This document shows, piece by piece, positions 11,408-35,269 of a stretch of 35,269 nt of DNA; within the stretch, counting starts at the first letter, position 1; every line of letters begins with the position of its first letter. The stretch covers positions 1 to 35,269 of the forward strand of contig JACVIX010000019.1 in assembly GCA_015711725.1 (NCBI GenBank), read 5' to 3'. Origin of the DNA: Candidatus Geothermincola primus. GTDB lineage: Bacteria; Actinomycetota; Geothermincolia; Geothermincolales; Geothermincolaceae. The translations under genes and the position numbers were made by a program. The notes below the pieces were generated by a model. The model saw nothing but the letters and a program-made list of their open reading frames with translations, did not search any database and was not told where the DNA came from.

Positions 11408-12424
11408 CTATCCGGAGAAGAGAGGTTCTATGGGCTTCCCCTCCAGGGAATCCAACCTCATGATCTTTTTAGCCATTGCGGGGCCCGCTCCCCATTTGCT
11501 TATCCCCACCAGATAACTGAGCGCCGCGGCAACAAGCAGCCCCTTAATCCAGCCTAACTTGCGAATAAGGAAGGTGGCGGCTATCGCCGAGCCCAAGGTA
11601 TATCCGAAGATCACCAGATTGAGCCAGGCGAATGACTCAGCAGCCTCCTTTAACACGACCTCGGGGTCTGGCTCTATGCCTTTCTCCTGGTAATAACCCT
11701 CAAGAATCCACTGAATAATCCAGTAATACATCAACGGCAGGAAGAACATGCCGAAGAATAGCAAGATCCTAACCACATCGGAAGAGACGAACCCCCTTAC
11801 CTTATCGGCCCTGCTCGAGGAGTCCGATCGCTCGAAGGACTCGCGGTCTCTGGAAAAAAATCTCTGGTATCCCCGGTTATCCCATCCGTTCGCCAGGATG
11901 AAGAAGAATCCCAGATAAGCCAGGACCGGCTGCAGTGCCGCCTTGAAGTATTTACCCCGCATCAGGTAGTTGTAGGTGACCAGATAGCCTAGGATGCCCT
12001 GGGTGATGTTGGTGGCGGTGAAGGCTCCCACCAGCCATTTGCTTATGGTTTCATACTCTCCCACCTGCATAGTCTCCCAGCTGGGGTTTCCCCAGAGAAG
12101 CACCGCGCCGGAAGGGACAAACAAGAGAGATAAAAACAGGAGGGTTTTCACGAAATATTCATCCTGTAAGGCGGGAGCGTTCTTCTCCGCCAGCTCTTCC
12201 ACCAGCTTCCTCAACTTGGAATACTCCCGCTTGTTTAACGTCCCCGCATCTCTTCCTCTTTTTACTCCTTCCCTGAGCGCGCCTATCAAATTGGTCTTAT
12301 CCCACCAATCCACTTTCCACTTCTCCCCCTCGCGCTGCGCGCGCAGCCTGCGTAGCTGACGGTGAGCGGCCAGAGCGAAACTGGCGCCGATGCCATAGCT
12401 CCAGAAGACATCCACTTGTACCAT
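11408..12424 (-). CDS. Multi-pass membrane protein of unknown function
   Basis: I do not recognise the family of this 338-residue protein. It has a short N-terminal stretch, a charged cytoplasm-like region rich in Arg/Lys/Glu (about 22-88), then about six or seven hydrophobic segments. These include VKTLLFLSLLFVPSGAVLLW, LVGAFTATNITQGILGYLV, LQPVLAYLGFFFILA, ILLFFGMFFLPLMYYWII, FAWLNLVIFGYTLGSAIAA and a C-terminal GLLVAAALSYLVGI. The tail repeats small residues (GAGPAMAKK). The ATG at 12424 follows GGAGAGGGGAAATCAT. It sits behind a perfect consensus promoter with a palindromic operator, so it is probably strong but repressible. A metallopeptidase gene lies upstream on the same strand. Confidence 0.8.
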   Translation of the reverse strand: MVQVDVFWSYGIGASFALAAHRQLRRLRAQREGEKWKVDWWDKTNLIGALREGVKRGRDAGTLNKREYSKLRKLVEELAEKNAPALQDEYFVKTLLFLSLLFVPSGAVLLWGNPSWETMQVGEYETISKWLVGAFTATNITQGILGYLVTYNYLMRGKYFKAALQPVLAYLGFFFILANGWDNRGYQRFFSRDRESFERSDSSSRADKVRGFVSSDVVRILLFFGMFFLPLMYYWIIQWILEGYYQEKGIEPDPEVVLKEAAESFAWLNLVIFGYTLGSAIAATFLIRKLGWIKGLLVAAALSYLVGISKWGAGPAMAKKIMRLDSLEGKPIEPLFSG

Positions 12425-19007: not shown

Positions 19008-20174
19008 TTATGCCCTTCCCGATTTTGTCGCCTTTGTGCCTGTAGCGGCCCTGCTGGCACTACGCTTCGCTACTCTCTTTGCCGGCGTCGCCTTTTTTCT
19101 TGGTTGCGCGGAGCAGCGTTCTATCAGCCATTCAGCCACTTTAGGAGCCAATTCCTTTTGGGACTTGGAGCTTACGTAGATGCCTATATGTCCACCGGGA
19201 AAACTGTAAAGGGTCTTGTCCTCGCTCCCCACCAGATCGTTCAGCGGGATGGTGCTCGCTGGGGGAACGAGGTGGTCTTCCGTCGCGTAAATGTTTAAAA
19301 GGGGAACGGTTATGTTCTTCAGGTTCACCCTCCTTCCCCCGATTTCCAACTCGCCTTTTACCAGTTTGTTCTCCTGATATAAATCCTTAATGAACTTGCG
19401 ATAGGCCTCTCCCGCCTGGGCGGGGCTGTCGAAGATCCACTTTTCCATGCGCACGAAGTTAGCCACGGTAGCTGGGTCGTCCAGATTGTCCATCAAGCCC
19501 ACATACTTGTCAACCATCAATTGAAAGGGCTTGAGCATAAGAAACGCCACATTGAGGAATTCCCCGGGAATAATGCCCATCGCGTCCACCATCTTATCCA
19601 CGTCTAAATACTGACTCCACACGTTAAGCAAGCCATCGGTGGTATGAAAGTCGATGGGCGCCACCATGGTAATCAGATTGAGGATTTTCTCGGGATAGAG
19701 CGCGGTATAGATGGTGACGAAAGTTCCCCCCTGACAAACTCCTAAAAGGTTTATCCTATCATGACCCGTCTCTTTGCGCACGTAATCCACTGCGTCGTTT
19801 AAGTAGACATCGATATAGTCTTCCAGAGTGACATAGCGATCCCCATGGTCGGGATAGCCCCAGTCGATTATGTAGATGTCCAGCCCTTGGCCAAGAAGAT
19901 TGCGGATGAGGCTGCGATCGGACTGCAGGTCCATCATATATTGGCGATTAACCAGAGCATAGCAGATCAAAATGGGCACCGGGCAGATTATTTTCTTCCC
20001 AGGAAGGTAATGATATAGACGCATCTTATCTTCCTCAAAAACCAGCTCTTTGGGCGTGGGCTCCACGTCTATGTCGCTTAAGGTGGTGAGGGTCTCCATT
20101 CCCTTCACTACCTTGCGGGTGATGTCTTCCAACTCCCCAATGAAAAAGCCGGGATCCATGAATTCCCTGAGCAT
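19008..20174 (-). CDS. phaC: Class III poly(R)-hydroxyalkanoate synthase subunit PhaC, with basic tail
   Basis: PhaC polymerises (R)-hydroxyacyl-CoA into polyester granules. The 388-residue protein has the lipase-like box GVCQGG with Cys147, an Asp at 300 (ATEDHLVP) and His329 (GGHIG), very near the positions known for the Allochromatium vinosum enzyme. Other family landmarks are YHYLPGKK, PVPILICYALVNRQYMMDLQ, DIYIIDWGYP and NLITMVAPIDF. The catalytic part ends near residue 354, the usual class III length. A further 34 residues rich in Lys, Arg, Ala, Ser and Thr (KKATPAKRVAKRSASRAATG) look like the histone-H1-like tails of some phasins. phaC starts 2 bp after the phaE stop and is the last gene of the operon. 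Confidence 0.95.
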   Translation of the reverse strand: MLREFMDPGFFIGELEDITRKVVKGMETLTTLSDIDVEPTPKELVFEEDKMRLYHYLPGKKIICPVPILICYALVNRQYMMDLQSDRSLIRNLLGQGLDIYIIDWGYPDHGDRYVTLEDYIDVYLNDAVDYVRKETGHDRINLLGVCQGGTFVTIYTALYPEKILNLITMVAPIDFHTTDGLLNVWSQYLDVDKMVDAMGIIPGEFLNVAFLMLKPFQLMVDKYVGLMDNLDDPATVANFVRMEKWIFDSPAQAGEAYRKFIKDLYQENKLVKGELEIGGRRVNLKNITVPLLNIYATEDHLVPPASTIPLNDLVGSEDKTLYSFPGGHIGIYVSSKSQKELAPKVAEWLIERCSAQPRKKATPAKRVAKRSASRAATGTKATKSGRA

Positions 20175-20176
20175 AT

Positions 20177-21301
20177 CTATCCCACCCCCTCCCCGGATTC
20201 TTGCCGTGCAAGCAATTTCTCCAGCTCCTTTTTCTGCCTACGCACCTCTCTCTTCAATTCGTGAATGGTCTTGTAGAGATGGTTCATCTCCGAACGATTG
20301 GGGAAAGGCAGATCCTTGGCGATTTCCTCGATGAAAGTTTGGAGGCTGGATCGGAACTCCATACCTTTTTCCACCAGTTGTCCCAGGAGGCGAGAAAATT
20401 CCTCGGTGCGAAAGGTTTCCACATATACATCCTCATTGGTCTGCCACCATAAGCGGTAAAGATCCCTGAAGCTTTTCAGTTGCTCGCCCTCTCCCGAGGT
20501 CTGCATCTCAGCCAGCCTTTCCTGGAGTTTCTTAATGGCGACATCTCCCGCGCTCCCCAGAGAAGCGTAAAAATCTACCACCACCAGGTTGAATTCCATC
20601 AGGGAATCCAGCAGGCGATCGAATTTCTCCACCGCTTCCCGGTAATAGCCCATGGCGGGCACCCGCAACATCCTGCCCACGCTGCGTTCATACGCCCTCT
20701 TCCATTCCTCGGAAATCCCGGCTACTTGCTCCGGGGTCATCCTCTCGCCTTTCTGCCATCTTTTCAGCATGCTCTGGGAGAACTCCCACCAGGGCTCCCA
20801 GAAACGCATGACCGCCTCCGCCTCCATACGGGGGATCTCGCCAGAGTAAATCTCGGCGATCCATTGCCATGACTGGGGAAAGGCGACAGCGAAGATCTTT
20901 TTGATTATCTCCTCATACCCTCGCGACCATTCCTGGAACAGCTTTTCGTAAACCTCTGGCCCCATGGTTTCCTCTCCAGAAACCACATCTTGGAAACGCT
21001 GGAACAGATTCATCCACCAGGCGAATAGCTGCATGTATATATCCGCGCTGGAGAACATTTTAAGAAAAGTTTCTGGTCCCAAACCTTCAAGCGGGGGCGG
21101 GAATTTTTCCATGAGGTCTTTCATATAGGAAATCCATTGATTGTAGAGGTCCTCCGGGAGGGCCTCCATGGCAACCTTTTCCCCTTTCTTGCCCCAGTCA
21201 GCTATCTGGCTCCATCCCTTAACCCAATTTCTAAAAGCGTCAGCCTGCATCTCCGGCCATCTCTTCCATATCTCTAACCAAGGAGTGGACCCCGTTTCCA
21301 T
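20177..21301 (-). CDS. phaE: Class III poly(R)-hydroxyalkanoate synthase subunit PhaE
   Basis: PhaE is the non-catalytic partner that class III PhaC requires for activity. This 374-residue protein is rich in Trp, Glu, Lys and Arg, as PhaE proteins are, with PWLEIWKRWPEMQADAFRNWVKGW at the N-terminus and MLKRWQKGERMT and YSQSM-like helical stretches in the middle. It ends in the conserved region EFRSSLQTFIEEI, then FPNRSEMNHLYKTIHELKREVRRQKKELEKLL, a C-terminal coiled coil (about 335-365). No membrane segment is present. The ATG at 21301 follows GGGCGGAGAG. It lies 31 bp after the phasin-like gene and 2 bp before phaC, so all three are probably one transcript. Confidence 0.93.
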   Translation of the reverse strand: METGSTPWLEIWKRWPEMQADAFRNWVKGWSQIADWGKKGEKVAMEALPEDLYNQWISYMKDLMEKFPPPLEGLGPETFLKMFSSADIYMQLFAWWMNLFQRFQDVVSGEETMGPEVYEKLFQEWSRGYEEIIKKIFAVAFPQSWQWIAEIYSGEIPRMEAEAVMRFWEPWWEFSQSMLKRWQKGERMTPEQVAGISEEWKRAYERSVGRMLRVPAMGYYREAVEKFDRLLDSLMEFNLVVVDFYASLGSAGDVAIKKLQERLAEMQTSGEGEQLKSFRDLYRLWWQTNEDVYVETFRTEEFSRLLGQLVEKGMEFRSSLQTFIEEIAKDLPFPNRSEMNHLYKTIHELKREVRRQKKELEKLLARQESGEGVG

Positions 21302-22252: not shown

Positions 22253-23002
22253 ATGCCTTTTTGCACACGTTGCGGGAACCAGATAAGCGATCAGGCCATC
22301 TACTGTACATCCTGCGGAGCGGAAGTAAAGGCCTCGCCCTCACAACAGCCCCCTTCCGCTTACTTTCGGGCTCCTCCATCTGGGGGAGCACCTCTTTATC
22401 AGTCCACAGGATATCAGCCTCCACCCGCCCCCGGCACACCCTCCTACCCCGACGTTCCGCCAACCGGCGAAGCTCCATATTCTCCACCTCCCCCAGCTAA
22501 AAAGTCAAAAAAGGGTTGCGTGATAGCCCTGGTCATCACGCTGGTTGTCATTTTGGTAGGAGCGGGGCTCGCTGTGGCCTTGGGTTTTTGGGTATTTAAA
22601 GCGGACAAGGAGCCCGTGGAGCCCGTCGAAACGGTGGAGTCCGGGGAAACGGCGAAGATCGTGGAAACCGTGAATAAATTTATGGAGGCGTTAAACAAAG
22701 GGGACACGGATACGGCATGGAACATGCTCTATTCCAACTCTCCGTTTAGGTGGTATTATAGCATGAGTAAGGAGCAATTCGATGCCTATGTGGTAAAGCC
22801 CTGTATAAACTACTTTTCTTCCTGGAACGCCTACGACTGCAGCGTGTCCGAAGACACCGCCAACGTGAAAACGAAGATGACGCCGCGAACAGGGGATCAA
22901 TACGAAATGACTATCATTCTTAACAAACAAGATGGAGATTGGAAGGTCTTCGACATGCTTTACGATTACGAGATGGAACGCCGAAAAGGGCACACCCTTT
23001 AA
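22253..23002 (+). CDS. Zinc-ribbon, single-pass membrane protein with NTF2-like outer domain
   Basis: This 249-residue protein has four parts. An N-terminal zinc ribbon has Cys4, Cys7, Cys18 and Cys21 (FCTRCGNQ, YCTSCGAE). A Pro/Tyr/Ser-rich disordered linker spans about 26-82. One membrane helix spans about 88-115 (CVIALVITLVVILVGAGLAVALGFWVF) behind lysines that place the ribbon in the cytosol. An outer domain of about 115 residues has the look of the DUF4878/NTF2-like group: IVETVNKFMEALNKGDTDTAWNMLYS at its start and DGDWKVFDM at its end. Such proteins are common in Actinobacteria and Firmicutes; their role is unknown. ATG 22253 is preceded by AAAAGGAGG at about 7 nt. Confidence 0.85.
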   Translation: MPFCTRCGNQISDQAIYCTSCGAEVKASPSQQPPSAYFRAPPSGGAPLYQSTGYQPPPAPGTPSYPDVPPTGEAPYSPPPPAKKSKKGCVIALVITLVVILVGAGLAVALGFWVFKADKEPVEPVETVESGETAKIVETVNKFMEALNKGDTDTAWNMLYSNSPFRWYYSMSKEQFDAYVVKPCINYFSSWNAYDCSVSEDTANVKTKMTPRTGDQYEMTIILNKQDGDWKVFDMLYDYEMERRKGHTL

Positions 23003-29143: not shown

Positions 29144-30217
29144 TCAATCCCTAGGTGTCACCCGGATATGCAGATCTTTATCCTCCGAGACCTCCCATTC
29201 CACACGCGTATCCACCCCGAAAGCCAGTTCATAGATGCCTTGGGCTAGGCCTGTCACCATGAGATGCAGCGCCGAGTTTTCCACGCGCAGACTCATGCTC
29301 CGCCGAGATACCTCCATCTCTTCAAGGCTTCCCAGCCCCCTTAGCGCAAGCTGAAGGCGCATGGTTTCCACATCGCTGAATTCTTTCACTGAATAAAAGC
29401 CGGTTTTAACGAAACGACGCTGCGCCTCGATCACCGTCCTGGGCACCGCTTCCCCTACTTCCCTTTCCATCTCCTGAAAGAGGGGGTCCAGCATGCCGGG
29501 ACCTAGGAATGCCATGCGCCTGCCGGTCCTTCCGCTCCTGATGATCCCGCTCTCCTGGTCCCAGCGAAATTCGGAAAGCGCCGCCGGGCCGCCACAAGTG
29601 GAACACCTCTCCCAATGAATATGGCCCTCCCGATGGCGATATTCATCCATATACATTTTTTTTCTTAACTCCTTGGGGTGCGCAGCGGGAAAGACTTTCA
29701 CCTCATGGATTCCCGGCCTGATCTCACTGCAGGAAAAGCCGTGCTCCCGTTCAGTCAGCGCCTCCACGGTCCCCACTATATTCCCCAGAAAAAGAGGCAA
29801 GGAATAAGGTTTTTCCAGAAGCAGGGTTACATAGTCAGCCTCATCCCCCTGGTAGCGAATGCCGGCGAAAGTGGGCTTTCCGAAGCCCATGATCTGCCCT
29901 ATTTGCATCACCTTGTCTATGACCAGTTCCATCTTCATAGCTCGCTCTTTGACCATCTCCACCATGTCTTGAGGCAATAGGTATTTAATATAACTGAAGG
30001 TCATCCTGCGAGAAACATGTGCCACGATGTGCTCGATGGACTGCCCTATTAAGTTTCCGATGCCCGCATAAAGGGGGTCGAGGTTTTCGCACTCGATGAA
30101 GGCCAATCGGGTCTTTTTCTGCCTTTTCTGCACCATTACACCGCTGTTCAGCCACACATGCTCACTGGTTATATAGCGCGGGACGCCGCATTCGGTGCAT
30201 ACTGGAGCTTCCTGCAT
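29144..30217 (-). CDS. Unrecognised protein of two repeated zinc-ribbon halves
   Basis: This 357-residue soluble protein is not a family I can name. It consists of two full-length repeats, about 1-180 and 199-357. Each begins with a two-cysteine knuckle: C7-TEC10-GVP and C205-STC208-GGP. Both continue with a serine-glycine strand pair and basic patch (SGVMVQKRQKKTRLAF versus SGIIRSGRTGRRMAF). Each then has a LDPL motif (NLDPLYAGI versus MLDPLFQEM) followed by a helix (NLIGQSIEHIVAHVSRR versus REVGEAVPRTVIEAQRR). Each ends with a strand pattern (GTVEALTEREHGFSCSEI... HEVKVFP versus GIYELAFGVDTRVEWEV... LHIRVTP). The C-terminal half has kept only parts of the middle. No membrane segment or catalytic motif is apparent. 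The ribosome site AAAAGGATAA precedes ATG 30217. Confidence 0.75.
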   Translation of the reverse strand: MQEAPVCTECGVPRYITSEHVWLNSGVMVQKRQKKTRLAFIECENLDPLYAGIGNLIGQSIEHIVAHVSRRMTFSYIKYLLPQDMVEMVKERAMKMELVIDKVMQIGQIMGFGKPTFAGIRYQGDEADYVTLLLEKPYSLPLFLGNIVGTVEALTEREHGFSCSEIRPGIHEVKVFPAAHPKELRKKMYMDEYRHREGHIHWERCSTCGGPAALSEFRWDQESGIIRSGRTGRRMAFLGPGMLDPLFQEMEREVGEAVPRTVIEAQRRFVKTGFYSVKEFSDVETMRLQLALRGLGSLEEMEVSRRSMSLRVENSALHLMVTGLAQGIYELAFGVDTRVEWEVSEDKDLHIRVTPRD

Positions 30218-30754
30218 TCTAGGTTATCCTTTTCCAGTTAAGCTTTCCTGTTTCTTGCCTCAAGATAATAAGTTTCCTTATCATACGCGCTTGCAGGCCC
30301 TAAAAAGACAGGTCTTTTTCAACAAAAACGCTGAGAGAACTCTTAGGTTTATCGATTGCTTCAGTCCATCTATTAATACCATATTCCAACAGATCATGAA
30401 GATTCAACATGACGGGAAGTTATACCCTCCATGGGGCATCCTTGGTTTCCATCTGCAACCGACCCAAATCGAGAAAGAAGAATAGAACGCGAGCTGCCAT
30501 CCAAATATGTTACATATTATTAAATTACTATTTAAAGATGCCTCTTTTGACATTCACTGGTTGAGAGTTCTCGAGATCTCTTTATTGCTGCACCTTTATG
30601 TTTAATCTCCTTTGCGAATACCTAAGACATTAGGAGGGCTTCTTAGATTTTCACGGACAAATGTCATGCTTCCTAGTTTAATGACGAATGTCAGAAGGCA
30701 TGACAATATTTTTTTGCAAAATGTAAAATAACTGACGCGCGTTAATTCGATTAA
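30218..30754. other. Spacer without recognised genes
   Basis: About 537 bp upstream of the two-half zinc-ribbon gene. It contains a one-mismatch palindrome TTGCAAAATGTAA (30714-30726). ORF 30195-30485 has no ribosome site and starts inside the neighbouring gene on the opposite strand. Confidence 0.4.
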
Positions 30755-30777
30755 AAAGGGCGGGAAACCCGCCCTTT
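30755..30777 (-). terminator. Terminator of the acyl-CoA dehydrogenase/thiolase operon
   Basis: A perfect 10-bp stem (AAAGGGCGGG/CCCGCCCTTT) with a 3-base loop. On the minus strand it is followed by five T, placing it about 107 bp after the last operon stop. The symmetry could let it work in both directions, though no plus-strand gene needs it. Confidence 0.88.
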
Positions 30778-30883
30778 AATCTTACTCGGCCTTGATCGTC
30801 TCACGGCATCTAACCTTACCTCGACCTTAACTTTAGCTTAGCCGAGACATCCTCTCCCTTGCTTACGTAAAAACAAAATAACT

Positions 30884-32020
30884 TTATCCCAGCAGGTGCC
30901 GGGCGATGACCACTCTCTGCACCTGGTTAGTGCCCTCATAAATCTGGGTGATCTTGGCGTCCCGCATCATGCGTTCCAAGGGATATTCAATCATATAGCC
31001 GTATCCCCCCAGAACTTGCACCGCGTCCACGGTCACCTTCATAGCAACGTCGGAGGCGAAACACTTGGCCATGGCGGATACGGCTGAGGCTTCTCTTCCT
31101 GCCCGCTCCACCAATGCGGCGGAGTAGTAAACCAGCTGGCGCGCCGCCTCCACCTGCATGGCCATATCCGCGATCATGAACTGGATACCCTGCAGCCTGG
31201 CTATAGGCCCCCCGAACTGCACCCTTTCCTTAGCGTAAGCGATGGCGTGGTCAAGCGCTCCGGTGGCGATTCCCACAGCTTGGGCACCGATGGAGGGGCG
31301 AGTGCGGTCCAGGGTCATCATGGCGATCTTGAACCCTTCGCCCTCTTTGCCCAGCAGGTTCTCGGCGGGCACCTCCATATCGGTGAAGATCAGCTCAGTG
31401 GTTTGGGAACCGCGGATACCCATTTTGTGCTCAATCTTGCCCACCTCAAATCCGGGGAAATCCTTCTCCACGATAAAGGCGGAGATGCCTTTCACTCCCG
31501 CGCTTTCGTCGGTCTTTGCGAAGATGGAATAGGTGTCCGCGATGCCGCCGTTGGTGATGAAGCATTTCTGCCCGTTGATGATATACTTGTCTCCCTTCTT
31601 CACCGCACGGGTGGACATGGCGGCTGCATCGGAGCCCGCGCCCGGCTCGGTGAGACCGAAAGCCGCTTGTTTTTCACCCCTCGCCAGCGGGGGGATATAT
31701 TTCTTCAGCTGCTCGTCGTTGGCCGCCAACATGATAGGCTGGGAGCCCAGCTTGCAAACCGCCAGGATCAGGCTGGTATTGGTGCAAACCCTAGCCAGCT
31801 CCTCGATGGCGATACAGATGGTGAGCAGGTCTCCCCCGGCTCCATCCAACTCCTCCGGAAAACAGAGAGCCAGAAGGTCATTGTCCCTCAACAGCTCAAA
31901 CATATCCCAAGGATATTCCCCGGAGGCGTCTATCTCCGCCGCCCTTGGCTCCACCTTCTCCTTGGCCAACTGTCTCACGGTCTGTTGGAGCATCTTCTGT
32001 TCTTCAGTGAGTTCGTACAT
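30884..32020 (-). CDS. Acyl-CoA dehydrogenase
   Basis: This 378-residue flavoenzyme oxidises acyl-CoA to trans-2-enoyl-CoA and passes electrons to an electron-transferring flavoprotein. It has the usual N-terminal helical domain (MYELTEEQKMLQQTVRQLAKEKVEPRAAEID) and the FAD/substrate loop FGLTEPGAGSDAAAMSTRA. KCFITNGGIAD, RVQFGGPIARLQGIQFMIADM and QVLGGYGYMIEYPLERMMRDAKI follow, then IYEGTNQVQRVVIARHLL with the catalytic Glu in YEGT. These are hallmarks of the short/medium-chain group (bcd/acadS-like). The track starts 14 codons earlier; ATG 32020 with AAGGAGG is the correct start. It is the last gene of the operon, 121 bp after thiolase. Confidence 0.95.
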   Translation of the reverse strand: MYELTEEQKMLQQTVRQLAKEKVEPRAAEIDASGEYPWDMFELLRDNDLLALCFPEELDGAGGDLLTICIAIEELARVCTNTSLILAVCKLGSQPIMLAANDEQLKKYIPPLARGEKQAAFGLTEPGAGSDAAAMSTRAVKKGDKYIINGQKCFITNGGIADTYSIFAKTDESAGVKGISAFIVEKDFPGFEVGKIEHKMGIRGSQTTELIFTDMEVPAENLLGKEGEGFKIAMMTLDRTRPSIGAQAVGIATGALDHAIAYAKERVQFGGPIARLQGIQFMIADMAMQVEAARQLVYYSAALVERAGREASAVSAMAKCFASDVAMKVTVDAVQVLGGYGYMIEYPLERMMRDAKITQIYEGTNQVQRVVIARHLLG

Positions 32021-32141
32021 TCTTCCCCCTCCTTTTCGATCGGCCACAGCCGCCGAACACATCCTTTCCTCCGCTGAGGCAACTTATCATCCAATACAAA
32101 CGGAATAACCCTGGCGCGTAGTTTTAAAGAAATTTATCGAG

Positions 32142-33332
32142 TTATTCCACCTTTATGATCATAGAGTCTCCCTGTCCGCCTCCACCGCAGATTCCCGCTC
32201 CGCCATACCCCCCGCCACGGCGGCGGAGCTCATAGGCCAAGGTGGTGACTATGCGGGCTCCGCTCACCCCGATGGGATGACCGAAGGCGATGGCGCCGCC
32301 GTTCACGTTGATATTTTCGGCCTTCTCTGGATCAAGTCCCAGCGCAGCGGCGGAATGCCAGCACACGCTGGCGAAAGCCTCGTTTATCTCTATCAGTTTT
32401 AGGTCCTGAAGCTTTAAGCCAGCTTTATCCAGAGCGTTTTTCAGCGATTCGGCGGGAACGTTGTGCAAATTGGTAAACTCATCGGCTATCCAACCATAAG
32501 AAACGATGGAGCAGAGAGGTTCAAGTCCCAGCTCTCTCGCCCTCTCCCCGCTCATTACCACCGCGGCACAGGCGCCATCGTTAATCTGAGAGGCATTCCC
32601 CGCTGTGATAGCTCCTTCCTTATCGAAGGCGGGGCGCAGCGCCGCCAGCTTCTCCACAGTGGTATCCGGGCGAACTCCCTCGTCTTTCAGGAACATAATC
32701 GGCTCGCCCTTCTTCTGCGGAACTTCCACCCCCACAATCTCCCCCTCCAGCAGGCCTTTCTCCTGAGCGGCGGCTGCCCGCTGGTGGCTGCGCGCCGCCC
32801 ACAGATCCATCATCTCCCGGGTAATTCCCAGCTTTTTCGCCCACTCGTCGCTTCCCTTGCCCATATGTTTATTCTCGAAGGCGTCCCAAAGTCCATCTTT
32901 TATCATGGAATCCACCAGCTCACCATCGCCCATGCGGTAACCGAACCTTCCCTTAGGGATGAGATAAGGGGCATTGGTCATGGATTCCATGCCTCCCGCA
33001 ACGATTATATCCGCCTGTCCCAGCTTTATCATCATGTCCGCCATCTCCAAGGCGCTCATGCTAGAGATACATACCTTATTGACGTTGATGCACCATACCT
33101 CCTTGGGTATGCCTGCCTTGGTAGCCGCTTGGCGGGCGGTTATCTGTCCCTGACCGGCCATGAGCACCTGTCCCATGATCACGCAGTCCACCATCTCCGG
33201 AGCGATCCCCGCCCTTTTAAGAGCCTCGGCGATGGCTATGCCGCCCAAGTCTTGCGCGGAGAAATCAATCAGAGCTCCTCCCATCCTCCCGAAAGGGGTA
33301 CGAGCTGAGCTGACGATGACGGTATCCTTCAT
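32142..33332 (-). CDS. Acetyl-CoA acetyltransferase (thiolase)
   Basis: This 396-residue thiolase joins or cleaves acyl-CoA and acetyl-CoA. It shows the family start VIVSSARTPFGRMGGAL and the nucleophile Cys88 in NKVCISSM. It also has VAGGMESMTNAPYLIP, GNASQINDGA, EINEAFA, NVNGGAIAFGHPIGVSGARI with the catalytic His, and a C-terminal ICGGGGQGDSM with the second Cys. The usual glycine after the nucleophile (C-x-S-G) is replaced by Ser. Length and motifs match acetyl-CoA acetyltransferases of the PhaA/AtoB group, which could serve fatty-acid breakdown or supply acetoacetyl-CoA. The ribosome site AAGGAGGAAGGGG is strong. It lies 21 bp after the first acyl-CoA dehydrogenase. Confidence 0.95.
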   Translation of the reverse strand: MKDTVIVSSARTPFGRMGGALIDFSAQDLGGIAIAEALKRAGIAPEMVDCVIMGQVLMAGQGQITARQAATKAGIPKEVWCINVNKVCISSMSALEMADMMIKLGQADIIVAGGMESMTNAPYLIPKGRFGYRMGDGELVDSMIKDGLWDAFENKHMGKGSDEWAKKLGITREMMDLWAARSHQRAAAAQEKGLLEGEIVGVEVPQKKGEPIMFLKDEGVRPDTTVEKLAALRPAFDKEGAITAGNASQINDGACAAVVMSGERARELGLEPLCSIVSYGWIADEFTNLHNVPAESLKNALDKAGLKLQDLKLIEINEAFASVCWHSAAALGLDPEKAENINVNGGAIAFGHPIGVSGARIVTTLAYELRRRGGGYGGAGICGGGGQGDSMIIKVE

Positions 33333-33353
33333 ATCCCCTTCCTCCTTCCTTGT

Positions 33354-34502
33354 CTACAAACCTAGTTCGCGTGAGATCACCAGGCGCTGCACCTCCGAGG
33401 TGCCCTCGCCGATCTCCAATATCTTGGCGTCGCGGAAGAACCGGGAAACGGCGTACTCTTCCATATAACCGTAACCACCAAAGATCTGCACCGCCTGAAC
33501 CGCCGCCTGCATGCACATCTCCGAGGCGAATAGTTTAGCCATGGACGCCTCTTTGGTATGGGGTTTGCCCGCATCCCGCAAAGCCGCCGCTTTATAGGTG
33601 AAGGTACGGGCCAACTCGATATTGGTGGCCATATCCGCTAGCTTGAACTGGATGGCCTGGAATTTGCCGATGGGCTGACCGAACTGAACCCTTTCCTTGG
33701 CGTATCTAATCGACTCTTCCAGACAACCTTGAGCGGTCCCCACCGCCAAGGCGGCTATGGCGATACGTCCTCCATCTAGGCATTTCAAGAACTGGCGGAA
33801 TCCCTCACCTCGCTTGCCAATCAGATTTCCCTCGGGCACCCTGCACTCGTCGAAGTGGAGCTCCCGGGTGTCGGAAGCGTGCCATCCCATCTTCTTATAC
33901 TTGGGAGCGATGTTATAGCCAGGAGTGCCTTTGGGCACATAGATATTGGAGATCTCCTTCTTTCCATCCTCGCGGGTGCCGGTAACCACGGTGATGGTCA
34001 CTCCGGCGCTTATATCCGTTCCCGCGTTAGTGATGAAACATTTGGTTCCATTGATCACCCACTGTCCTTTCTCCAGACGGGCGTTGGTCTTCGTATTTCC
34101 AGCGTCCGATCCCGCCTCCGGCTCGGTGAGGCCGAAGGCGCCCAAAGCCTTGCCCTGTGCCAGCGGGACCAGCCATTCGCGTTTCTGTTCCTCGGTCCCG
34201 AAATGATAGATGGGTGCCGATCCCAGGCAGGTATGAGCCTCCAAGGTGATGGCGCAAGAACCATCCACGCGTGCTATCTCCTCCACCGCTATGGCGAAGG
34301 CCAGCTCATCTCCCCCAGAACCTCCGTACTCTTCCGGCCAGGGTATGCCCATCAATCCCATGTCAGCCATCTTCTCGATGATATCGTAGGGAAATTCCCC
34401 GGATTCCCACATCTCCTCCACTTTTGGCCTGATTTCCTGCTCGGCGAAGTCGCGCACGGAGTTTCTAAAGAGGGTCTTCTCTTCATCCAGTTCGAATAAC
34501 AA
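33354..34502 (-). CDS. Acyl-CoA dehydrogenase
   Basis: This 382-residue acyl-CoA dehydrogenase is a paralogue of the one at 30884. Landmarks are FELDEEKTLFRNSVRDFAEQEIRP, GIPWPEEYGGSGGDELAFAIAVEEIAR and GAFGLTEPEAGSDAGNTKT. They continue with TKCFITNAGTDISAGVTI, RVQFGQPIGKFQAIQFKLADMATNIELAR, IFGGYGYMEEYAVSRFFRDAKI and IGEGTSEVQRLVISREL. The catalytic Glu is in GEGT. The start is TTG 34502: an in-frame stop lies three codons upstream, GGCAGGTG provides the ribosome site, and no in-frame ATG is nearby. It is the first gene of the three-gene operon, behind a TATAAT promoter. Confidence 0.94.
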   Translation of the reverse strand: MLFELDEEKTLFRNSVRDFAEQEIRPKVEEMWESGEFPYDIIEKMADMGLMGIPWPEEYGGSGGDELAFAIAVEEIARVDGSCAITLEAHTCLGSAPIYHFGTEEQKREWLVPLAQGKALGAFGLTEPEAGSDAGNTKTNARLEKGQWVINGTKCFITNAGTDISAGVTITVVTGTREDGKKEISNIYVPKGTPGYNIAPKYKKMGWHASDTRELHFDECRVPEGNLIGKRGEGFRQFLKCLDGGRIAIAALAVGTAQGCLEESIRYAKERVQFGQPIGKFQAIQFKLADMATNIELARTFTYKAAALRDAGKPHTKEASMAKLFASEMCMQAAVQAVQIFGGYGYMEEYAVSRFFRDAKILEIGEGTSEVQRLVISRELGL

Positions 34503-34535
34503 GCTGCATCACCTGCCTTTTATCCTGCTGCAAAA

Positions 34536-34555
34536 AATCCTTCGACGAAAGGATT
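34536..34555 (-). promoter_or_regulatory. Hairpin with T-run at the operon start, attenuator or upstream terminator
   Basis: On the minus strand AATCCTT-tcgtcg-AAGGATT is followed by TTTT. The stem begins within the -10 box and ends in the first transcribed bases. It could be a second terminator for the upstream DUF35 transcript, or it could influence early elongation. Confidence 0.5.
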
Positions 34556-34581
34556 ATATATTAATTAGATTCCAGCTTCAA
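34553..34581 (-). promoter_or_regulatory. Promoter of the acyl-CoA dehydrogenase/thiolase operon
   Basis: On the minus strand TTGAAG (34576-34581), a 17-bp spacer and a perfect TATAAT (34553-34558) lie about 50 bp before the TTG start of the first gene. Confidence 0.7.
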
Positions 34582-34774
34582 TTAGAGTTGATGCCGACCA
34601 ATTTTTCCCAACTCGCCGTCGAAACATAAAAACTTCCGCCACCAAAACCATTGAGAGAATATAATTGTCTCGATCCATACACCAGAGAAATCATGGCAAA
34701 ATCCAAGTTCTAAAATCTTATCGAATTTGGCCACTATAAATACGTATGGGACCTACTGAAAGAGGGATGGGAAA

Positions 34775-34807
34775 GCGAAGGAGAGGATAGGTCATCCTCT
34801 CCTTCGC
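34775..34807 (-). terminator. Long hairpin terminator after the DUF35 gene
   Basis: A perfect 14-bp inverted repeat, GCGAAGGAGAGGAT/ATCCTCTCCTTCGC, with a 5-base loop lies directly after the DUF35 gene stop. The T-run on the minus strand is only three bases, so termination may be partial. Confidence 0.7.
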
Positions 34808-34813
34808 ATCAAT

Positions 34814-35269
34814 TTACGCGGGTTCAAACCACATTAAAAGCATTGGATGGTCCACGGGTTCGGTGGCGTAAGCGACTTTCACCGGCATTCCCACCTTGAT
34901 CTTATCCAGCTCTCCATAGTTTTTCATCTGATGGGTAAAGAGGGTATCCGCTCCATCCAGCTTAACCATGGAGAGGATATAGGGTGTCTCCACTTTCATG
35001 AAGGCGGGCACGAAGTAGGATACCGAAAAACTCTCCAGGGTGCCGGTGCCCGGCAGCTCCTTCCACTTGGTGATGCTACGGCAATCAGCGCAAAGTGGTC
35101 GGGGAATCGCCCATACCTTCCCACAGTTCTGGCACTCCGTGGCGAAGAATTTATGGTTAGCGAGCTCGATAAAGAACCGGGAATATTTGCCCAAGATATG
35201 CTTATAAGTAAAGTTCATCTTCCACTCGATCCGCATGATCTGGCGAAAATCTTTCCAGGGATCGCCCTC
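34814..35269 (-). CDS. DUF35 Zn-ribbon/OB-fold protein, 5' part cut by window edge
   Basis: This is a DUF35-type protein: a rubredoxin-like zinc ribbon (ECQNCGKVWAIPRPLCADC) followed by an OB fold (ELPGTGTLESFSVSYFVPAF... PYILSMVKLDGADTLFTH... VGMPVKVAYA). DUF35 proteins pair with thiolase-like or hydratase partners and help handle acyl-CoA. The ORF is open to the window end: codons before the ATG at 35236 read EGDPWKDFRQI without a stop, and no ribosome site is seen there, so the true start is probably outside. A thiolase-like partner gene would be expected just beyond the edge. It is separated from the dehydrogenase operon by a hairpin and a new promoter. Confidence 0.88.
   Translation of the reverse strand, partial: EGDPWKDFRQIMRIEWKMNFTYKHILGKYSRFFIELANHKFFATECQNCGKVWAIPRPLCADCRSITKWKELPGTGTLESFSVSYFVPAFMKVETPYILSMVKLDGADTLFTHQMKNYGELDKIKVGMPVKVAYATEPVDHPMLLMWFEPA

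Follow-up and report, generated by a model that had tools for sequence, protein, structure and literature searches.

A predicted tandem V4R-superfamily protein with split zinc knuckles, present in many diverged copies in Candidatus Geothermincolia

The gene at positions 29144..30217 (minus strand) of the window, as we call the whole analysed stretch of 35,269 nucleotides, encodes a protein of 357 aa with an ATG start. Judged from the ORF, AlphaFold2 models and family alignments, it consists of two predicted V4R-superfamily domains in tandem, each behind a CxxC knuckle. A preliminary description had called these 'zinc-ribbon repeats', a label that is unsuited because most of each half of ~155-180 residues is taken up by a V4R/H-NOX-type alpha/beta domain, the knuckle covering ~15 residues. 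The apt name would be a tandem V4R-superfamily protein with split zinc knuckles. As the best explanation of the family, we propose with middling confidence that its members are pseudo-dimeric ligand sensors, each standing alone and acting in trans, which together form a repertoire specific to this clade.

In the case of the window protein, Pfam (above cut-off) and NCBIfam gave zero matches, and a sequence search of the PDB returned no significant one. When 48 family members were scanned with hmmscan at E <= 1, the Pfam V4R profile (PF02830) was left unmatched, and so was that of XylR_N. A name for the family was found neither in Pfam or NCBIfam nor in the literature searched.

Internal duplication and conserved residues

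The homology of the two halves is beyond doubt, and the ORF is an internal duplication. Their Smith-Waterman score was 78, compared to 28.5 +/- 4.5 in 500 shuffles (z = 11), none of which reached 78. Comparing the profiles of the N-half and the C-half by hhalign gave 99.1% with 48 sequences and 99.8% (P 2.7e-29, 157 columns) with 144 members, so that the two full-length repeats proposed earlier stand. Together they occupy the chain entirely. The N-terminal repeat (residues 3-180; 29678..30211, minus strand) is based on hhalign of N- against C-half, hhalign to V4R proteins and AlphaFold2. The C-terminal repeat (residues 199-357; 29144..29623, minus strand) is based on the AlphaFold2 model of the C-half alone, Foldseek and hhalign. 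Each is composed of a knuckle and a V4R-like domain. An asymmetry of the halves, as was suspected, could be detected: the N-half is longer and less conserved, with a mean pairwise identity of 27% vs 33% in the C-half.

The first knuckle, C7-TE-C10-G-V-P (codons of residues 7-11 at 30185..30199, minus strand), and the second, C205-ST-C208-G (codons of residues 205-209 at 29591..29605, minus strand), hold the four cysteines C7/C10 and C205/C208, which are invariant in 144/144 full-length members. No other conserved Cys or His was found among the 144 members, the best being His180 (45%) and Cys316 (35%). Several further positions are kept in both halves, namely the Trp after the knuckle (W22 100%, W219 92%), a Gly-x-Ile strand (G26/I28, G224/I226), a basic residue (R37 91%, R234 93%) and a GxG (111/113, 294/296). 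Outside the four Cys, conservation is highest mostly at Gly, Pro, Trp, Arg and Glu positions. The LDPL that had been put forward as a family motif did not hold up: it occurs at the N-half site in 26/144 members and the corresponding C-half position is variable, so in these alignments it is largely peculiar to the window protein and its near relatives. The family is acidic, with a median pI of 5.4 and 5% of members above 9.

Predicted fold of the repeats

AlphaFold2 modelled the whole chain, using 47 relatives, with a pLDDT of 92.2 and a pTM of 0.89, and the second half alone with a pLDDT of 84.8 and a pTM of 0.74. Searching the PDB by Foldseek led to a single superfamily including MopR, PoxR, DmpR, H-NOX, Bet3/TPC6, YslB and the V4R protein MJ1460. 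With the C-half alone, the first 14 matches were all phenol-sensor domains (E 1.6e-6 to 3.3e-5), with moderate TM-scores over the query of 0.61-0.68; Bet3 was weaker (0.46-0.51), and palmitate-bound TRAPPC3 was also present among the matches. Altogether these models give good support for a V4R/XylR_N/H-NOX/TRAPP-Bet3 fold in each half, with the phenol-sensor domains of MopR/PoxR/DmpR as the nearest predicted relatives. The structure prediction proposed as a check thus returned a V4R-superfamily fold in each repeat, in the case of the C-half also alone, and the idea of a pseudo-dimer with a sensor-like fold is in line with these models.

The profiles point in the same direction. Compared by hhalign to V4R proteins of Geothermincolia genomes, the C-half reached 82% and the N-half 39%, co-linear over the domain, with reversed-profile controls at 0.2-0.3%. 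The landmarks common to the family and V4R are an acidic-x-x-x-G-x-I strand, a G-x-G, an N-(S/P) and a GxxxG helix, the last of which has been described for V4R/Bet3 (PMC2253512). This GxxxG lies in the last helix of each half. At N-half positions 145/149, Gly is found in 97 and 127 of the 144 members, the remainder being mostly Ala; at C-half positions 323/327, it is found in 134 and 101.

The stand-alone V4R proteins (PF02830) of Geothermincolia share the co-linear profile match, the GxG and the GxxxG helix with the family. They differ in being single-domain proteins of ~250 aa with a C-terminal Cys cluster, whereas the family is tandem and has N-terminal knuckles. V4R proteins proper were seen in 12/31 class genomes (L157-L166), often as two adjacent genes and often beside proteins resembling 2-hydroxyacyl-CoA dehydratase subunits; the window's own genome has none.

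The overall fold is also alike in the H-NOX/HNOB haem domain. However, compared to H-NOX, the family has no conserved His (no column above 45%), and YxSxR occurs in 3/144 members, by chance. A haem sensor was consequently rejected, as both the H-NOX proximal His and the YxSxR contacts are absent. TRAPP Bet3/TPC6 and YslB (DUF2507) resemble the family in overall fold and dimeric use, but there is no sequence-family match to them and they have no metal knuckles.

Putative shared zinc site

The CxxCGxP knuckle is common to the family and to zinc ribbons (zf-Mss51, eL37 and Zn_ribbon families). A zinc ribbon requires two knuckles, whereas each half of the family holds one knuckle with two Cys, and the two knuckles lie 198 residues apart. 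A single zinc held jointly by both halves, as had been suggested, would need exactly four Cys, and the family supports this reading, since it has only four invariant Cys and neither a conserved His nor a further conserved Cys. From the alignment, one Zn(Cys)4 common to both halves is thus plausible. In a covariation analysis, 27/60 top pairs were inter-half, about chance level.

Distribution and paralogs

The window's own genome (3.17 Mb, 99.7% complete) has 18 intact full-length copies, including that of the window, to which the others are 17-41% identical. Additionally, one broken copy with stops and frame shifts (L017:4360-5430, own contig 33), the sole degraded copy seen in this genome, lies directly behind a gene resembling seryl-tRNA synthetase. 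Searching with a profile of the own paralogs gave 2-53 matches in every one of the 31 class genomes covered, that of the window among them, with a sum of 520 and a median of 19; no match was obtained in 8 genomes of other classes. Among 397 genomes sampled from the phylum, 27 had matches, all of them Candidatus Geothermincolia, and the remaining 370 Actinomycetota genomes had zero. A pattern scan of ~85,000 species genomes, which reaches close relatives only as the pattern was built from these, gave 48 loci. All of these lie in MAGs with the label Actinomycetota, for many of which the name is Candidatus Solincola or Geothermincola; given the reach of the scan, distant relatives may exist in other phyla. 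Within these searches, the family appears confined to the class Candidatus Geothermincolia. A MAG labelled Acidimicrobium ferrooxidans holds at least 5 family copies (L067, L071, L075, L082, L086), and because the family is restricted to one class, this label is probably wrong.

The search for single-half homologues proposed earlier yielded none in the class genomes: family matches span both halves, apart from broken genes and fragments truncated at contig ends. A mobile or viral origin was rejected, as tblastn against plasmids gave no family match and viral contigs held no relative.

In a tree of 144 members, 17/18 own copies are closer to a copy of another genome than to an own paralog, and because of this the diversification is considered old. 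Local tandem duplications are also seen at L058, L080, L083 and L092, and at L099:3322-8487 four family genes follow each other on one strand, a local tandem expansion. Copy number correlates positively with genome size (Spearman 0.64). Where genomes maintain tens of ancient paralogs each, the function is usually a central adaptive one.

Genomic neighbourhood

The family genes lie scattered, mostly as single-gene transcription units, and no partner is conserved beside them. Of 18 measured upstream gaps in the own genome, only two were < 60 bp with the adjacent gene on the same strand, and one of these belongs to the broken copy. The median upstream gap is 400 bp vs the usual 240 bp (P = 0.03), with gene calls from a simple codon-score caller, so that start sites and small genes are approximate. 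In the case of the window gene, the upstream intergenic stretch of 666 bp (30218..30883), defined by the gene layout up to an acyl-CoA dehydrogenase gene, suggests an own transcription unit.

Neighbours in the own genome are mixed (Sir2, homoserine dehydrogenase, carA, ftsK, dapF, GH3, poly-A polymerase, amidohydrolases), and a partner common across loci, which had been another proposed check, did not emerge. Several ortholog sets retain local order, e.g. phoU/gltX/cysE/cysS, radical SAM/MazG/HK-RR and thiolase/polysaccharide flippase. Deriving a function from neighbours was rejected, as these sets differ in neighbours, which are mostly unrelated housekeeping genes. The preliminary description had also considered a link to the neighbouring DUF2889 protein, a homologue of which was found at no family locus other than that of the window copy; by this comparison the adjacency is incidental. 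An acyl-CoA dehydrogenase lies near 3/19 family loci, with 26 such domains in the own genome, and this proximity was dismissed as a clue to function, the enrichment being weak and without a clear pathway.

Possible function and mechanism

The fold of each half is common to the XylR_N-V4R sensory domains of MopR/PoxR/DmpR, sigma-54 activators of phenol catabolism. These domains work as a tightly associated pair, whereas in the family the pair is fused in one chain, and AAA+ ATPase or DNA-binding domains are absent among its Pfam matches. An effector fusion was also discarded: no Pfam domain was recognised in the N-terminal extensions of called ORFs, which are probably start-call artefacts. Superfamily members of known function have aromatics (MopR/PoxR/DmpR), haem (H-NOX) or acyl chains as ligands, and the superfamily also includes scaffolds (TRAPP) and possibly enzymes. 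Compared to the phenol sensors, the family has lost the V4R zinc ligands of the C-terminal part (three Cys and one Glu), which are missing in the 144 members, and has gained a CxxC at the N-terminus of each half. In DmpR, these ligands are C151, E172, C177 and C185, and the N-terminal residues 18-45 intertwine the two sensory domains to a homodimer (PMC7264223).

The models suggest that two divergent V4R/XylR_N-like domains, each behind its knuckle, are covalently joined into a pseudo-dimer. The two knuckles would meet around a single Zn(Cys)4 and so tie the halves together, and this zinc may replace the N-terminal arm exchange of the DmpR homodimer and lock the pseudo-dimer. For V4R domains, binding of hydrophobic ligands and signalling to effectors in cis or trans have been proposed (PMC2253512). 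By analogy, ligand binding is what we infer as the safest reading of the fold: one V4R fold, or each of the two, could accommodate in its cavity a small molecule that is probably hydrophobic, such as an acyl or aromatic compound. This ligand would differ between paralogs, with the more variable N-half as the candidate for specificity. As the protein has no recognised output domain, signalling would occur in trans through binding of a partner, perhaps via the better conserved C-half, with E253, G255 and the E264-A-Q-R-R-F helix as candidate contacts. An output in trans is our best guess because the acidic pI and the missing HTH disfavour DNA binding. Regulators tend to increase in number with genome size, and since the family behaves alike, its copy number was counted for the sensor reading. 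A more far-reaching version, which we put forward tentatively and regard as somewhat doubtful, is a private repertoire across the whole class, in which a genome would have as many as about 50 effector-less pseudo-dimeric V4R sensors with a zinc shared between the repeats, i.e. chemical sensing by a dispersed trans-acting family unlike classical one- or two-component regulators.

The rise with genome size would also suit a direct regulator of transcription or RNA, a one-component regulator without helix-turn-helix in which the paired knuckles together with R37/R234 and the QRR helix contact nucleic acid while the V4R folds bind an effector. The dispersed, mostly monocistronic genes with their longer upstream gaps would also be expected of such a protein, and eL37, a ribosomal protein, has a zinc finger to which the knuckle is weakly similar. 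Nevertheless, we regard this as unlikely, as the family is acidic, neither an HTH nor another DNA-binding Pfam match was obtained, and neighbours are unconserved whereas target operons often are conserved. The Foldseek matches to Bet3/TPC6 and YslB, which act as dimers in complexes, could instead indicate a structural or assembly adaptor in which V4R folds tether complexes and no diffusible ligand is involved; up to 53 diverged paralogs in a genome and a Bet3 TM-score below that of the phenol sensors make this quite improbable. Least probable in our estimate is an enzyme or enzyme subunit whose substrates, hydrophobic or sulfur-containing metabolites, would vary by paralog. Some V4R-related domains have been compared with ATC hydrolase (MetOD1, PMC5847659) and the wide diversification would fit, but the conserved residues besides the four Cys include no His, and the three Cys common to V4R and ATC hydrolase are missing from the family.

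The V4R/H-NOX/TRAPP superfamily would be extended by a fused tandem with a relocated metal site. The family also offers a concrete entry point to how Geothermincolia, represented here solely by genome assemblies from environmental DNA, perceive or process their substrates.

Other features of the window

A 338-aa ORF at 11408-12424 (minus strand) has a good codon score and no Pfam match. At 22253-23002 (plus strand), a short zinc-ribbon protein with a weak DUF4878-like domain is encoded, which is unrelated to the tandem V4R protein. A class III polyhydroxyalkanoate synthase pair, composed of a PhaE-like subunit and a PhaC-like alpha/beta hydrolase, lies at 19008-21301 (minus strand). Finally, 667 bp upstream of the family gene, a beta-oxidation-like cluster (30884-35269, minus strand) comprises two acyl-CoA dehydrogenases, a thiolase and a ChsH2-type OB-fold/zinc-ribbon protein.
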